From Frigoribacterium sp. PhB160 (GTDB lineage Bacteria; Actinomycetota; Actinomycetes; Actinomycetales; Microbacteriaceae): a stretch of 64,000 bases of DNA. Location of the stretch: positions 1,279,564 to 1,343,563 of the forward strand of contig NZ_RKIE01000001.1 of assembly GCF_003751785.1 (NCBI RefSeq), written 5' to 3'. Shown one piece after another: positions 2,875 to 63,464 of this stretch. The notes beneath the pieces are model-generated. The model searched no databases, was not told where the DNA came from, and was given only the letters and a program-made list of their open reading frames with translations. The translations under genes were made by a program, and so were the position numbers. Numbering within the stretch: the stretch's first letter is position 1; every line of letters begins with the position of its first letter.

Positions 2875-2949
2875 GTCGGCAACTCCGGCGGAGGTGCGAC
2901 GGGAGGCCGCGTCGGCGCCCCCTGTCGCACGAGAGCAGGAGTTGCCGAC
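2875..2949. repeat. 75-bp double inverted repeat, copy 1
   Basis: Outer arms GTCGGCAACTCCGGC (2875-2889) and GCAGGAGTTGCCGAC (2935-2949) enclose inner arms GTGCGAC (2894-2900) and GTCGCAC (2924-2930), with 4-nt spacers on both sides and a 23-nt core. The same geometry recurs at 54447-54521 and 61587-61661. It sits between a regulator start and the stop of the DksA-like gene. Function unknown; a REP-like element, protein-binding site or RNA hairpin are all possible. Confidence 0.85.
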
Positions 2950-2990: not shown

Positions 2991-3326
2991 TCAGGTCGCG
3001 CAGTCGATGCAGAGCCGGGCGGTGGGTCGGGCCTCGAGCCGGGCGTCGCCGATGCGGGCGGCGCAGCGCTCGCAGCGGCCGAACGTGCCGTCGGCGAGGC
3101 GGCCGAGCGCGGAGGTGGCGTCGGCGGCCCGCTCGAGGGCCGACCGGCGGACGGCGTCGAGCTGCGACCGCTCGTAGGCGATCGTCGACCCCTCGGGGTC
3201 GTGCTCGTCGTCGACGTTGGCGCCCTCGCGCGCGGCGGCGACGGCCTCCATGTCGCCGAGGAGGCGCTCGGCGAGGACCAGGGCCTCGTCGCGGGTGCGG
3301 CGGAGGCGGTCGCCGGGGTCGATCAC
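2991..3326 (-). CDS. DksA/TraR-type zinc-finger protein
   Basis: A 111-residue protein with an N-terminal helical region (residues 5-80, charged) and a C-terminal four-cysteine finger, CERCAARIGDARLEARPTAR followed by LCIDC, matching the C4 finger of the DksA/TraR family. Such proteins bind in the RNA polymerase secondary channel; in Actinobacteria many small relatives have unknown targets. The GTG start (3326-3324) overlaps the TGA stop of the upstream transferase gene as GTGA, so the two are probably translated together. The N-terminal acidic coiled-coil tip residues of true DksA are not obvious, so the exact role is open. Confidence 0.85.
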   Translation of the reverse strand: MIDPGDRLRRTRDEALVLAERLLGDMEAVAAAREGANVDDEHDPEGSTIAYERSQLDAVRRSALERAADATSALGRLADGTFGRCERCAARIGDARLEARPTARLCIDCAT

Positions 3327-35050: not shown

Positions 35051-35985
35051 GCGGCCCCGAGCAGTTCCTCGCCGACCGGGCCGTCCGTCAGCTCCGCGAC
35101 CAGCTCGCGGCGGAAGACCCGAGCATCGAGGTGAACGACCTCGACGCGGGCCAGTACCAGCCCGGCGAACTCGTCAGCCTCGCGAGCCCCTCGCTCTTCG
35201 CCGAGCCGCGGCTCATCCGCGTCGCGTCGGTGGAGAAGTGCACCGACGCGTTCCTCTCCGAGACCCTGCGCTACCTCGAGTCGCCGGCCGACGACACCTA
35301 CGTCGTCCTCCGGCACGGCGGGGGAGTGCGCGGCAAGAAGCTCCTCGACGCCCTGCGTTCCGGCACGGGCGGCGGCATCGAGGTCGTCTGTGCCGAGCTC
35401 AAGAAAGACACCGAGAAGTACGACTTCGCCGCCGCCGAGTTCTCGGCCGAGCGGCGCCGCGTCACGAGCGGTGCCCTGCGCGCCCTCGTCACGGCCTTCA
35501 ACGACGACCTCGCCGAGCTGGCCAGCGCCTGCCAGCAGCTCATCTCCGACGCCGCGGAGGAGGTGACCGAGGTCACCGTCGAGAAGTACTACTCGGGCCG
35601 CGTCGAGACGAACGCCTTCAAGGTCGCCGACATGGCCATCGCCGGCCGCCAGGGCGAGGCCCTCGTGCTGCTGCGGCACGCCCTCTCGACCGGGGCCGAC
35701 CCGGTGCCCGTGGTCGCCGCCTTCGCCGTGAAGGTGCGCACGATGGCGAAGGTGCAGGGGGCGTACGGCCCCGCGGCGCAGCTCGCCTCGCGCTTCGGCA
35801 TGGCGCCGTGGCAGGTCGAGCGTGCGCAGCGCGACGTGCGCGGCTGGAGCGAGGAGGGACTCGGGCGGTGCATCGAGCTGCTCGCCGAGACCGACGCGGC
35901 CGTCAAGGGCGCCGAGCGCGACGCGGTCTACGCCCTCGAGCGCATGGTCACCGCCGTCGCGACCCGCGGCCAGCTCGCCCGCTGA
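34951..35985 (+). CDS. holA: DNA polymerase III delta subunit
   Basis: A 344-residue clamp-loader subunit that opens the beta sliding clamp. Family features are PAPVVLVSGPEQFLADRAVR near residue 28, LFAEPRLIRVASVEKCTDAF, the helical domain FKVADMAIAGRQGEALVLLR and LGRCIELLAETDAAVKGAER at the end. The ATG at 34951 has an excellent GGAGGAGG site. Its first 100 bases overlap the end of the comEC frame in another phase. The comEA-comEC-holA-rpsT order is common in bacteria. A strong terminator follows. Confidence 0.95.
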   Translation: MAARATGKTAKKATVSIDQVAWHQIRPAPVVLVSGPEQFLADRAVRQLRDQLAAEDPSIEVNDLDAGQYQPGELVSLASPSLFAEPRLIRVASVEKCTDAFLSETLRYLESPADDTYVVLRHGGGVRGKKLLDALRSGTGGGIEVVCAELKKDTEKYDFAAAEFSAERRRVTSGALRALVTAFNDDLAELASACQQLISDAAEEVTEVTVEKYYSGRVETNAFKVADMAIAGRQGEALVLLRHALSTGADPVPVVAAFAVKVRTMAKVQGAYGPAAQLASRFGMAPWQVERAQRDVRGWSEEGLGRCIELLAETDAAVKGAERDAVYALERMVTAVATRGQLAR

Positions 35986-35990
35986 CCGCA

Positions 35991-36030
35991 CGACGAAGGC
36001 CCCGTCTCCGAGGAGACGGGGCCTTCGTCG
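35991..36030. terminator. Bidirectional terminator between holA and rpsT
   Basis: CGACGAAGGCCCCGTCTC (35991-36008) pairs perfectly over 18 bases with GAGACGGGGCCTTCGTCG (36013-36030), loop CGAG. Confidence 0.88.
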
Positions 36031-36067
36031 ACGGCCGGGCCGAGGCCCGAGCCGAGGGGGTCGGTGC

Positions 36068-52406: not shown

Positions 52407-54332
<1,926 letters not shown>

Positions 54333-54446: not shown

Positions 54447-54521
54447 GTCGGCAACTCCTGCTCGAGTGCGACCTCCGCGCCGGGACGCGTCTGCGGTCGC
54501 ACGAACGCAGGAGTTGCCGAC
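54447..54521. repeat. 75-bp double inverted repeat, copy 2
   Basis: Perfect outer arms GTCGGCAACTCCTGC (54447-54461) and GCAGGAGTTGCCGAC (54507-54521), perfect inner arms GTGCGAC (54466-54472) and GTCGCAC (54496-54502), 4-nt spacers and a 23-nt core. This is the best-preserved of the three copies. Confidence 0.9.
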
Positions 54522-54648: not shown

Positions 54649-55311
54649 TCAGCGGGGCCGCCGCCAGCGCGGCAGCCGACTGAGGGCGCGCTGCTCCGGC
54701 AGCGTCCACCCGAAGCGCACCGCCAGCAGCCGCACGACGAGGGTGACCGACGTGCCGACGACCGCCGCGACGGCGACCGGCGTGCCGAACGAGGCGAGCA
54801 CGACGAGCACGACGGTGCCCGAGGCCGCCGCGATGGCATAGAGCGACCCGACGTGCATCATCGCGATCGTGAGGTTCATGAGCAGGTCGCGGAGCACCGA
54901 CCCGCCGACGGCCGAGATCACCCCGACGAACACGGCCGGGATCTCGGGGATGCCGAGCGACAGCGCCTTCGTCGACCCGATGGCCCCGAAGAGCCCGATG
55001 GTGAGGGCGTCGAGCACGGTGATGAGCCCGGCCAGACGATGGAAGACCCGCTGCAGCGCCATGCCCGCCAGGGCCGCGCCGACGGCGACGACGAGGTACC
55101 AGTTGTCGCTCATCATCCGCGGCACCTGTCCGAGCAGCACGTCGCGGAGGATGCCCCCGCCGAGCCCGGTCGCGATGCCGATGATGGCGACGCCGAGCAG
55201 GTCGAGCCGGCGGTCCTTGAACTCCGACGCGAACATCGCCCCCTGCAGGCTGCCGACGCCGACGGCCAGGAGATCGGCCCAGAGGGGGATGGCGAGGGCC
55301 GTGGCGTGCAT
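54649..55311 (-). CDS. TRIC-type cation channel / UPF0126 membrane protein
   Basis: A 220-residue membrane protein with two repeats of the family module, each three helices plus a GGG/GG-S/I-L-R-D motif: [20 protein letters not shown] and [20 protein letters not shown]. This is the bacterial TRIC (trimeric intracellular cation channel, YicG/UPF0126) pattern; relatives are also proposed to carry small solutes. It is divergent from recO with a gap of only 34 bases, and TACAAA lies six bases before its ATG. Confidence 0.9.
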
Positions 55312-55317
55312 CCGACG

Positions 55318-55323
55318 TTTGTA
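55318..55323 (-). promoter_or_regulatory. Possible -10 (TACAAA) for a leaderless TRIC mRNA
   Basis: TACAAA on the minus strand, six bases, then ATG at 55311. The last base does not fit TANNNT. Confidence 0.35.
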
Positions 55324-55345
55324 CCACGCGTGGGATGCTGGGGGA

Positions 55346-56188
55346 GTGCCTGTCTACCGCGACGAATGCGTCGTCCTCCGCACCCACAAGCTGGGCGAGG
55401 CCGACCGCATCCTCACGATGCTCAGCCGCGAGCACGGCAAGATCCGGGCCGTCGCGAAGGGCGTCCGCCGCACCGGCTCGAAGTTCGGCGCGCGGCTCGA
55501 GCCGATGATGGTCGCCGACCTCCAGCTCTACGAGGGCCGGTCCCTCGACATCGTGCAGCAGGCCGAGTCCCTCGGCTCCTACGGGGCCATGATCGCCTCC
55601 GACTACGCCAGCTACACGGCGGGCAGCGTCATGGTCGAGACCGCCGACAAGCTCACCGACGCGGAGGCCGGCCTGCAGCAGTACCTCCTCCTCGTCGGGG
55701 CGCTCCGGTCCCTGTCCCGCCGCGAGCACGACCCGCAGCTGACGCTCGACTCGTACCTGCTCCGTGCCCTGAGCGTCGCCGGCTGGTCGCCCAGCTTCGG
55801 GGACTGCGCGGTGACGGGTGCACCCGGGCCGCACTCGGCCTTCGTCGTCCAGCTGGGCGGGGTGGTGGCCGACTCGCACGCGCCTCCGGGAGCCCCGCGC
55901 CTGGCCCCGCAGACGCTCGGCCTGCTCGCGGCCCTGCTGACCGGAGACTGGCCGACCGCCGAGGCCGCCGACGAGAGCACCCGCAACCAGGCCAGCGGCG
56001 TGGTCGCCGCCTACACGCAGTGGCACCTCGAGCGCGGGCTGCGCTCCATGCAGCACCTCGACCGCGAGCCGGGCCGCCCGTTCCGCGTGCCGGGGACCCC
56101 GTCGCCCGAGGCGCTCGCCCAGGCCGGGGAGGCGCGCCCCGCCACCCGAGGCGCGCACCCCGCCGCCCCCACCGGAGGAACCCCGTGA
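55346..56188 (+). CDS. recO: DNA repair protein RecO
   Basis: A 280-residue recombination mediator that works with RecR to load RecA. The N-terminal OB-fold is [52 protein letters not shown], all typical. The C-terminal helical domain includes [20 protein letters not shown] and [14 protein letters not shown]; the four-Cys zinc site of some RecO proteins is not complete. The final 35 residues are Pro/Ala-rich. GTG at 55346; the stop overlaps the uppS GTG (GTGA). Confidence 0.95.
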
Positions 56189-60030: not shown

Positions 60031-61416
60031 GTGGCAGCACCCAACCGTCTCGATTCCGTCATCGCCCTGGCCAAGCGCCGAGGCTTCGTCTTCCAGTCGG
60101 GAGAGATCTACGGCGGATCGCGGTCGGCGTGGGACTACGGGCCCCTCGGCGTCGCGCTGAAGGAGAACATCAAGCGCCAGTGGTGGCAGACCATGGTGCA
60201 GGGCCGCGACGACGTCGTCGGGCTCGACTCGGCCGTCATCCTCCCGCGCCAGGTGTGGGAGGCCTCCGGGCACGTCGAGGTCTTCAGCGACCCGCTCGTC
60301 GAGTCGCTGCACACGCACAAGCGCTACCGCGCCGACCACCTGCTCGAGGCGTACGAGGCCAAGCACGGCCACCCGCCCGAGAACGGCCTGGCCGACGTGC
60401 GCGACCCCGACACCGGCCAGCCCGGCTCGTGGACCGAGCCGCAGAACTTCTCGGGCCTGCTGAAGACCTTCCTCGGGCCGGTCGACAACGAGCAGGGCAT
60501 GGCGTATCTCCGCCCCGAGACGGCGCAGGGCATCTTCACGAACTTCGACAACGTCCTGCAGTCGTCGCGCATCAAGCCGCCGTTCGGCATCGGCCAGATC
60601 GGCAAGAGCTTCCGCAACGAGATCACGCCCGGCAACTTCATCTTCCGCACGCGGGAGTTCGAGCAGATGGAGATGGAGTTCTTCGTCGAGCCCGGCAGCG
60701 ACGAAGAGTGGCACCAGTACTGGATCGACGCGCGCTACCAGTGGTACGTCGACCTCGGCATCGACCCCGAGAACCTGCGCCTCTACGAGCACGCGGCCGA
60801 GAAGCTCTCGCACTACTCGAAGCGCACCGTCGACATCGAGTACCGGTTCCGCTTCGCGGGCGGCGAGTTCGGCGAGCTCGAGGGCATCGCCAACCGCACC
60901 GACTACGACCTCAAGACCCACGCCGCCGCCTCCGGCAAGGACCTGTCGTACTTCGACCAGGCCAAGAACGAGCGGTGGACCCCGTACGTCATCGAGCCCG
61001 CGGCCGGCCTCACCCGCTCGCTGATGGCCTTCCTCGTCGACGCGTACACCGAGGACGAGGCGCCGAACGCGAAGGGCGGCGTCGACAAGCGCACGGTGCT
61101 GAAGCTCGACCGTCGCCTCGCGCCCATCAAGGTCGCGGTGCTGCCGCTGAGCCGCAACGAGCAGCTGTCGCCGATGGCGCGCGGGCTCGCGGCGGACCTC
61201 CGCAAGTACTGGAACATCGACTTCGACGACGCCGGCGCCATCGGTCGCCGGTACCGACGCCAGGACGAGATCGGCACGCCGTTCTGCGTCACCGTCGACT
61301 TCGACTCGCTCGAGGACGACGCCGTGACCGTTCGCGAGCGCGACACGATGGCGCAGGAGCGCATGCCGCTCGCGGCGCTGCGCGGGTACCTGGCCGAGCA
61401 GCTGCTCGGCGCGTAG
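60031..61416 (+). CDS. glyS: Glycyl-tRNA synthetase (homodimeric alpha2 type)
   Basis: A 461-residue class II synthetase. Motifs: [72 protein letters not shown] with motif 2 [14 protein letters not shown], and motif 3 [16 protein letters not shown]. The anticodon domain is [23 protein letters not shown] at 60031 is the start next to the conserved N-terminus. A weak hairpin follows. Confidence 0.97.
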
Positions 61417-61586: not shown

Positions 61587-61661
61587 GTCGGCAACTCCTG
61601 CGGACGTGCGACGCGGCGGCCCTGCGGGCCCTGGCGTCGCCGCCCCGCAGGAGTTGCCGAC
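61587..61661. repeat. 75-bp double inverted repeat, copy 3
   Basis: Outer arms GTCGGCAACTCCTGC and GCAGGAGTTGCCGAC at 61587-61601 and 61647-61661; inner left arm GTGCGAC (61606-61612) but the right arm is GTCGCCG (61636-61642), two changes. Six further bases on each side (GCCGGC) also match, extending the outer arms to 21. Confidence 0.87.
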
Positions 61662-61772: not shown

Positions 61773-62762
61773 ATGACGAGCATCGACGACCTGGTGGCCG
61801 CGGCCGGCGGCCTGCTCCACAAACGTGCCCTGGTGGCCCACGGCGCCACCGACCGGCACCTGACGGCCGCCGTCCGCGGCGGCGGGGTGTCCCGCCCGCG
61901 ACGGGGGTGGTACTCCACCTGGCCGCCGACCGATCCGCGACACGTCGCCGTGGCGGTCGGCGGTCGCCTCACGGGCGCGTCGGCGCTGGCGCAGCGCGGG
62001 GCGTGGTCGTGGCGCGAGCCGGGCCTCGTCGTGTCCGTCCCTAGGACGGCGTCCCGTCTGCGGCGACGCCGTGGGGTGCGCGTCGTGTGGGACGGTCCCG
62101 AGGTGAGCGAGCGCGGCGGCGTCTGGTCCGTCGACGTGCGCGACGCGCTGGCGCGCGCCGTGGTCGAGGCGGCCTCGTTCGAGGACGCGGTGGTCCTCGC
62201 CGACTGGGCCCGCGCCTCCGGCGTGGTCCACGACGACGACGACGCCCGGGCGGTGCTCGGGCGTCACCGCCGCGACGCCGCGACGCTCGCCGAGTGGGCC
62301 GACGGCGGGTGCGACAGCATCATCGAGAGCGCGGCGGGCACCCGCCTGCGCCTCGCCGGCCGCAGGATCCGGCGACAGGTCGTCGTCGGTCCGCGCGGCG
62401 AGCGCGTCGACATGGTGGTGGACGGCGTCGTCGGCCTCGAGACGGACGGCCGGCAGTTCCACGCCGACCGGTTCGAGCGCGACCGGCGGAAGGACGCCCT
62501 CGTCGCGATCCACGGGCTCGCTCCCTTCCGGGCCAGCTACCTCGCCGTCCGCGACCGATGGGAGGAGACGGAGTCGGCCGTGGACGCGCTCGTGCGGACC
62601 CGTCGACGAGGCGTCCGGACCGCTCGCGGCACCGACCCCACGCCCCGGCGACCCCGGGGGAGGAGGGGCGCCCGCTCGTGGCACTTCGGGCCGCGACGCC
62701 GGCCCCGATCCCGGCTCGGGGTCGGCGGGAATGCGGGGGCGTCCCGCCGACTTCTCCCCACC
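61773..62762 (+). CDS. DUF559-like nuclease-fold protein, open frame running into the next gene
   Basis: The recognisable protein covers about residues 1-275. An N-terminal AbiEi-like winged-helix region (LVAAAGGLLHKRALVAHGAT, RHLTAAVRGGGVSRPRRGWY) is followed by a restriction-nuclease-like fold with E in DSIIESAAGTRLRLAG, VDMVVDGVVGLETDGRQFHA, FERDRRKDALVAIHGLAPFR. This is common in Actinobacteria, function unknown. No stop codon occurs in the frame before the downstream DsbA-like gene, so the end given is only the base before that start. A 563-residue fusion ending at 63464 is formally possible. ATG at 61773 lacks a strong ribosome site. Confidence 0.6.
62721..62751 (+). terminator. Hairpin inside the run-on frame
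   Basis: GTCGGCGGGA (62721-62730) pairs perfectly with TCCCGCCGAC (62742-62751), followed by TTCTCCCC. It lies 11 bases before the DsbA start, so it may end the DUF559-like transcript; it argues for two genes. Confidence 0.5.
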
Positions 62763-63464
62763 GTGACCGCCTCGACTCCCGTCCCCGTCCCCTCCGCGAC
62801 CCCCGATGCCGTGAAGATCGACGTCTGGAGCGACATCGCCTGTCCGTGGTGCTTCATCGGCAAGCGCAAGTTCGAGGCGGCTGCCGCGCAGTTCGACGGT
62901 GCCGTCGAGGTCGAGTACCACTCGTTCGAGCTCGCGCCCGAGACCCCCGTCGACTTCGACGGCGACGAGGTCGACTTCCTCTCCGGGCACAAGGGCCTGC
63001 AGGCCGACCAGGTCGCGGGCATGCTCGCCTCCGTGGCCGAGATCGCCGCCCGGGTCGGCCTCGACTACGACTTCGGCGCCCTGCGCCACACGAACACCGT
63101 CAAGGCCCACGAGCTCCTGCACCACGCGAAGTCGCTCGGCCGCCAGCTCGAGATGACGGAGCGGCTCTTCGCCGCCTACTTCGAGGAGGGGCGCCACGTC
63201 GGGCGCGTCGACGACCTCGCCGACCTGGCCGCGGAGATCGGACTCGACCGCGACGACGCCCTCGGCGCCCTGGAGAGCGGACGGCACCTCGCCGCCGTGC
63301 GGGACGATCAGGCGCGGGCGCAGTCGCTCGGCATCACGGGCGTGCCGTTCTTCGTCCTCGACGGCAAGTACGGCATATCGGGTGCGCAGGCGCCGGAGGC
63401 GTTCCTCCAGGCCCTGGAGCAGGTGGCCGCCGAGCGCGCGACCGCCACCGAGAGCGCCCGATGA
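62763..63464 (+). CDS. DsbA/FrnE-family oxidoreductase
   Basis: A 233-residue thioredoxin-fold protein without signal peptide. The active site CPWC is near residue 28 in VWSDIACPWCFIGKRKFEAA; the helical insert has LDYDFGALRHTNTVKAHELL and the cis-Pro loop is GITGVPFFVLDGKYGISGAQ. This matches the cytosolic FrnE/YwbO group, linked to polyketide isomerisation and oxidative stress; the real substrate is unknown. GTG at 62763 is preferred over the fused frame. The small gene after it overlaps by ATGA. Confidence 0.9.
   Translation: MTASTPVPVPSATPDAVKIDVWSDIACPWCFIGKRKFEAAAAQFDGAVEVEYHSFELAPETPVDFDGDEVDFLSGHKGLQADQVAGMLASVAEIAARVGLDYDFGALRHTNTVKAHELLHHAKSLGRQLEMTERLFAAYFEEGRHVGRVDDLADLAAEIGLDRDDALGALESGRHLAAVRDDQARAQSLGITGVPFFVLDGKYGISGAQAPEAFLQALEQVAAERATATESAR

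Follow-up and report, generated by a model that had tools for sequence, protein, structure and literature searches.

The window analysed here, a 64,000-nucleotide stretch of a 3.34-Mb Frigoribacterium genome (G000; all other G handles denote compared genomes and L handles denote loci), carries three copies of a 75-bp element, each surrounded by an intergenic gap of more than 300 bp between genes called with a simple gene finder. Copy 1 (2875-2949), delimited from the sequence, gene calls, Pfam and a pattern search, lies between a GAF-domain gene (1437-2681) and a DksA/TraR zinc-finger gene (2991-3326), both on the minus strand. Copies 2 and 3, placed by sequence, gene calls and Pfam, sit between plus-strand genes, copy 2 (54447-54521) between a leuA-like (52572-54332) and a recO-like gene (54869-56188), and copy 3 (61587-61661) between a class II tRNA synthetase gene (60031-61416) and a DsbA-like gene (61773-63464). 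The element as a whole was given no strand. Its left arms, on the plus strand, cover 2875-2900 (15-bp part plus inner block, from sequence and consensus), 54447-54472 and 61587-61612, and the right arms, on the minus strand, cover 2924-2949 (likewise from sequence and consensus), 54496-54521 and 61636-61661. These coordinates and the common length agree exactly with a preliminary description made from the letters of the window, as do the near-identical 15-bp outer arms, which are perfect in copies 2 and 3 and carry one mismatch in copy 1 (left CCGGC, right CCTGC). The inner pair GTGCGAC/GTCGCAC that it had placed at fixed offsets in all three is found in copies 1 and 2, but the right inner arm of copy 3 reads GTCGCCG, and the gaps said to differ in orientation do so in strand only, flanking genes being co-directional in every case. 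Across the window, the 12-mer of the arm matched at 26 places with up to two mismatches, whereas 100 shuffles averaged 12.4 matches and never exceeded 21.

In the complete window genome, the exact double-arm pattern occurs at four places (reversed control: none), and C1:1274688 carries a fifth copy, which has two mismatches. All five fall inside 124 kb of contig 1, a clustering that none of 200,000 simulated random placements equalled. The preliminary description had regarded a scarcity of copies beyond the three as evidence against a family; taken by itself, the window genome, with its five, shows just that scarcity, and the rest of the genus overturns it. An exact 12-mer arm scan of named genomes returned 31 stretches, with Frigoribacterium in all, at total lengths of 75-76 and 84-87 bp where the pattern permitted 60-90 bp. 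At 75 bp, 11 of 16 genus genomes matched with up to three mismatches, and the 11-mer arm GTCGGCAACTC occurred 12-48 times per genome in all 16 (reversed control 0-4), compared with at most 11 times per genome in 133 other genomes of the family or order. Copy numbers in the stretches examined ranged from 2 to 43 per genome; those of G004 contained 43 and those of G015 contained 35. Searching 199 genomes of the family, which included four of the genus, for the 86-bp form with mismatches allowed brought up four genomes, namely three of the genus and G222 of another genus; as this second genus was found by mismatch search only, more diverged relatives may have been missed. Sixteen viral-contig stretches held one pair each, with arms that differed outside the typed core and lengths of 76-105 bp; we read these as chance and discarded a viral origin. 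Among the papers that searches of the open-access literature brought up, none could be recognised as dealing with this element, and no family name was found for it, in line with the earlier statement that no named element was known.

Genus-wide, the element consists of two inward-facing arms with the consensus GTCGGCAACTCCTGC-N4-TGC around an unconserved core. Position weights from 186 arms (93 elements) showed that the 11-mer hardly varies, that positions 12-15 depend on the subtype and that position 21, part of the TGC at 20-22, is a conserved G; the inner block of G000 lies 1 bp further in than in most genomes. Since arms were found by the 11-mer with at most one mismatch, or by a matrix built from such arms, the conservation of positions 1-11 is partly built in, and positions 12-22 are free of this search bias. 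Outside the arms no conservation was seen, the outer boundary being abrupt and the flank unconserved. Scanning 711,651 bp from 83 sources, most of them loci picked for holding arms, with the weight matrix gave 422 arms of at least 12 bits and none in the reversed control. Two subtypes occur in some genomes, CTCCTGC...TGC at 84-88 or 96-98 bp and CTCAGGA-GAA-CGG at 74-76 bp; G000 and G006 depart from this, their CTCCTGC subtype measuring 75-76 bp. Arm position 15 also follows lineage, being A in 23 of 32 arms of G007, G012, ACAM 257 and PhB116 and C in 35 of 36 arms of G000 and G006, with other genomes mixed. As a side observation, the subtypes keep to separate parts of the chromosome in G004 (L111-L124) and G015 (L096-L109), 74-76-bp copies lying mostly on one side of dif and 84-98-bp copies mostly on the opposite side; L106, L114 and L124 are among the exceptions.

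The lengths of the element are quantised. Among 178 copies from 14 genomes, a list restricted to 70-99 bp in which copies count as distinct unless the element and 30 bp of flank are identical, 49 measured 74-76 bp, 101 measured 84-88 bp, 27 measured 96-98 bp and one measured 82 bp. The class means are 75.1, 86.1 and 96.9 bp and rise by about 10.9 bp at a time, close to a turn of the helix and slightly above 10.5 bp. The matrix scan gave the same picture for inward pairs up to 150 bp, with 47 at 74-76, one at 82, 100 at 84-88 and 27 at 96-98 bp, besides eight between 100 and 142 bp and one of 29 bp; a '100-bp' pair in L077 turned out to be cross-pairing between neighbouring elements. Because many loci had been found via the pair pattern, single arms were checked in G004, G007 and G015, where 87 of 102 exact 11-mer arms had an inward partner at 73-99 bp, and these partners lay at 74-76, 85-88, 96 or 98 bp only (104 exact 11-mers were listed for the three genomes; two of G015 were left aside, as were 25 of G010). 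Strong arms of at least 20 bits were paired in 289 of 309 cases overall and in 129 of 141 cases within loci chosen by single arms. With arms set at 22 bp, the inner DNA measures 31.1, 42.1 and 52.9 bp, or 2.96, 4.01 and 5.04 turns of 10.5 bp; the figure of 3.0 turns depends on the chosen arm end, as the shifted inner block of G000 illustrates, and the step of about 10.9 bp does not. Very small Rayleigh p-values overstate the case, since copies share ancestry and the test assumes independence, and on a conservative view the data show three classes of length, spaced by about 10.9 bp. Elements adjacent to one another at up to 36 bp were separated by 4, 14, 24-25 or 35 bp in 18 of 19 gaps, several of which are orthologous or come from one array; for outward gaps up to 200 bp, phasing was weak (p about 0.01-0.05). 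Constant spacing around a variable core, as the preliminary description had put it for the three copies, is supported, but the length varies beyond the window: genomes of its clade have 75-76 bp, and other genomes mostly have 84-88 or 96-98 bp. Its conclusion that selection rather than simple duplication is at work is supported as well.

Inverted arms of this kind could in principle act as RNA, as a bidirectional terminator or a transcript-stabilising stem at gene 3' ends. The window copies do yield strong predicted folds (z -6.7 to -9.3), most copies lie between convergent or co-directional genes, and a ribosomal-protein operon contains a hairpin built from the same arms with 4 nt in its loop. 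Any inverted pair of identical sites would fold as well, however. We compared the two arms within an element with arms of other elements of the same genome and class (98 elements, 500 shuffles). Left-right agreement equalled expectation at positions 1-11 (0.922 observed versus 0.923 expected), 12-15 (0.796 versus 0.788) and 23-32 (0.382 versus 0.386), was lower at positions 16-19 (0.406 versus 0.457) and showed a slight excess at positions 20-22 (0.680 versus 0.652, reached by 25 of 500 shuffles). Belonging to one copy thus does not raise the agreement of two arms above that of arms from separate copies of a genome, which argues that arm pairing is not under selection, and compensatory change between arms is absent from the 98 elements. 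Nor was the T-run that follows the GC hairpin of an intrinsic terminator present, TTTT occurring in none of 356 outer flanks of 15 nt. Loop-length steps of 10-11 nt have no evident meaning for a hairpin, some gaps hold up to five copies, and Rfam gave no match at the five G000 copies (E <= 0.1). A role as RNA hairpin is accordingly very improbable, and the RNA or cruciform structure offered earlier as one of two options finds no support, since covariation is lacking.

Orthologous gaps proved to differ in length class by lineage. The leuA-recO gap holds a 75-bp element in G000 and G006, elements of 86-87 bp in four other genomes and of 87, 97 and 98 bp in G012. The tRNA synthetase-dsbA gap has 75 bp versus 86, 87 and 98 bp in other species, the glycosyltransferase-luciferase gap 75-76 bp in G006 versus 84-85 and 96 bp, and the mpaB-phosphoesterase gap 75 bp versus 84-86 bp. 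At these four sites one or both of G000 and G006 have the short form of 75-76 bp and the other genomes have forms of 84-98 bp, and the site of copy 1 adds a further case, with 75 bp in G000 versus 87 bp in G007, where one small ORF went uncalled. All fetched copies of G000 (5 of 5) and G006 (13 of 13) are 75-76 bp long, and as the two genomes group with a support of 0.994 in an unrooted tree of ten proteins from the flanking regions, the short class in them is most simply one lineage event. Two observations argue against length classes due to descent alone, namely that they differ at the same orthologous gaps and that lengths are quantised again in a second genus. Among 92 equal-length orthologous pairs, selected at a core identity of 55% or more, arm positions 1-11 were 93% identical and cores 74%; both percentages carry a selection bias. 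By inspection, one 87-bp copy in the leuA-recO gap of G007, PhB116 and ACAM 257 keeps perfect 15-bp arms, while its core differs and its flanks have gained and lost bases. Trans-acting proteins that read the copies would account for both the class uniform across a clade and the bias at arm position 15. Copying within a genome could also have homogenised the elements, an alternative disfavoured by cores that look unrelated. Separately, the mpaB-phosphoesterase gap of G006 (L142, upstream of 2402) also contains an irregular 7-base repeat, GAACCCC/GAACGCC, which runs for several hundred bases beside the elements.

The second genus of the same family, represented by G222 and G019, carries a variant arm, NNCGGCAACTCAGG, mostly clustered, with 17 matches versus 1 in the control for G222 and 9 versus 0 for G019; a third genome of that genus, G160, showed no excess of arms (1 versus 3 in the control). 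Although the arm search was loose here (54 matches versus 16 in the reversed control), 17 of 18 inward pairs of 60-115 bp at the loci concerned (L147, L150-L154 and L156) measured 85-88 or 95-97 bp, the remaining one being 70 bp long. G222 contributed 12 pairs at 85-88 bp and one at 97 bp, and G019 four at 95-96 bp and the one at 70 bp. Pairs outside this range measured 31, 121 and 123 bp.

We weighed mobile elements against these data. One candidate is a REP- or REPIN-like mobile palindrome moved by a RAYT-type Y1 transposase. The likeness is real: both are small and intergenic, lie mostly in convergent or co-directional and seldom in divergent gaps, often form inverted pairs with a spacer and build local arrays, and excerpts of two papers give spacers of 20-100 bp for REP, BIME and REPIN elements (PMC3733652, PMC3116915) and describe REP dimers whose spacers can share a similar length but differ in sequence (PMC3733652). 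REP and REPIN ends, however, are palindromic stem-loops of 20-40 bp with a GTAG or CGTC tag. On inspection the arms of our element are not stem-loops, the 15-bp arm GTCGGCAACTCCTGC having only a 3-bp internal complement and neither a GTAG nor a CGTC tag at its end. REP copy number often exceeds 100 per genome (PMC2817692, in part), whereas the range here is 2 to 43 in the stretches examined and the host genome has just five, and orthologous sites are occupied in several species. Lengths quantised by about one helical turn, with a length class shifted across the copies of a clade, set the element further apart from REP. Y1_Tnp (PF01797) was detected in 0 of 16 genus genomes, compared with 5 of 14 control genomes, so that the RAYT partner suggested earlier is missing from all 16. 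RAYT-type mobilisation is already largely refuted, and we give it hardly any credence. The label 'REP-like' holds for location and small arrays and breaks down for the defining stem-loop, tag, copy number and Y1 transposase; within the part of a REP survey that we consulted (PMC12306157), neither Frigoribacterium, Curtobacterium nor the word 'helical' appears.

Alternatively, the arms could be the ends of a miniature transposon bound by a DDE-type or other double-strand transposase, with phasing arising from the pairing of both ends of a very short element. Asymmetric two-part inverted ends, the abrupt outer boundary without conserved flank and a copy number per site that varies between species would suit such an origin, and neighbours of the second-genus copies mostly lack a match among the genes in Frigoribacterium loci. 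The element shares shortness and inverted ends with MITEs but differs from them in three respects. Target-site duplication in 84 elements did not exceed shuffles for k = 2-8 (direct flank matches at k = 4: 2 versus 0.7 expected, maximum 3; one each at k = 5 and 6, within the shuffle range), cores from separate sites within a genome appear unrelated by eye, unlike those of recent copies, and alignable orthologues at shared gaps show vertical descent. Incidental inspection brought up no larger autonomous element bearing these ends. We consider a miniature transposon unlikely.

The genomic setting was evaluated for all 178 copies. Nine fall inside ORF calls and 23 lack a called neighbour on one side with the simple gene finder; among the remaining 146 copies, 52 lie in convergent, 88 in co-directional and 6 in divergent gaps. 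Counting gaps of at least 150 bp, those with elements comprised 44 co-directional, 21 convergent and 3 divergent cases, and those without comprised 69, 27 and 19, respectively. Divergent gaps are therefore under-represented (3 of 68 versus 19 of 115, p = 0.018), and convergent gaps are not enriched (p = 0.30). Up to five copies share one gap, and small arrays form at some sites. According to Pfam scans, flanking genes are unrelated and mostly core or housekeeping genes, including leuA, recO, a tRNA synthetase, dsbA, a phosphoesterase, a glycosyltransferase, an acetyltransferase and GreA.

This setting bears on a reading of the element as an operator pair of a DNA-looping gene regulator. Integral turns between paired sites are a classical trait of looping repressors, and AraC, LacI and similar looping proteins use two sites in helical register, with activity expected to depend on integral turns. 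The element shares this geometry, and a called start codon follows copy 3 at a distance of about 110 bp. In contrast to AraC and LacI operators, it is present in many copies beside unrelated genes without a common function and is scarce in divergent gaps, where promoters lie; a looping operator is thus distinctly unlikely. The parS centromere of plasmid P1, in which two arms flank a bent spacer over about 75 bp, offers a purely geometric analogy.

Taken together, the element probably represents paired, facing sites of a putative double-strand DNA-binding protein, spanning about three, four or five helical turns. Each arm would be an asymmetric binding site of about 22-26 bp, with both arms read by the same protein, presumably as a dimer or tetramer of protomers. 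Such a protein may hold both arms on the same face of the helix, with the DNA between them forming a small loop or wrap whose sequence would be irrelevant and whose length would have to be about three, four or five turns. The number of turns would then be set by genome and subtype, as expected with trans-acting proteins reading all copies. Some genomes contain both subtypes with their different lengths, so a single protein for each genome may oversimplify the matter. The dimeric protein that the preliminary description had named as its other option is supported by these results. A partner did not emerge from Pfam scans of all 47 called window genes, which assigned ordinary families to 45 and none to 2; a TetR, a LuxR-type response regulator and HrcA are encoded in the window, and nothing ties any of them to the element.

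As to the role of these putative paired protein-binding sites, the likeliest, offered as a guess, is a structural one in the manner of BIME arrays, such as nucleoid folding or supercoil handling at gene 3' ends. Flanking genes that are unrelated and mostly housekeeping, together with the under-representation of divergent gaps, favour a structural role. A more far-reaching version, which we regard as possible though somewhat more speculative, is an actinobacterial chromosome-organising system in which a protein clamps facing sites over whole turns, the setting of three, four or five turns is reset across the loci of a lineage, protein geometry and genome-wide spacing have co-evolved, and adjacent pairs stand in register in small intergenic arrays. 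Paired sites in phase with the helix have been described for single operators. Dispersed as a family, with quantised spacing, whole-turn lineage shifts at the same loci and uniformity within a clade, they would offer a natural experiment on the co-evolution of a DNA-bridging protein and its sites. The element also provides a bait of defined sequence for a protein search, and helical phasing makes the model sharply testable.

We also considered a terminus or origin element. A dif-like site, ATAATGCACATTATGTCAG or close to it, occurs exactly once per genome in 16 of 16 genus genomes, at C1:1660030 in the window genome. Copies of G000, G006 and G007 all lie to the same side of this site, at 261-395 kb. 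Additional clusters flank dif on either side in G015 and G004, and two G004 copies lie about 300 kb from dnaA; copy positions relative to the dif-like site and dnaA thus rule out both a ter and an ori element.

Finally, two minor observations were made. The 4-nt-loop hairpin, with the same 12-bp arms in perfect form, spans L047 1054-1081, corresponding to C2:55253-55280 of the window genome, and sits between rplE- and rpsH-like genes (identified by eye) of the ribosomal-protein operon; among the matches listed, 29-bp arm pairs also occur in G006, G012 and G007. Within the window, the 1-kb gap at 35051-36067, between comEC-like and rpsT-like genes, holds no called gene, and a gene such as holA may lie there.
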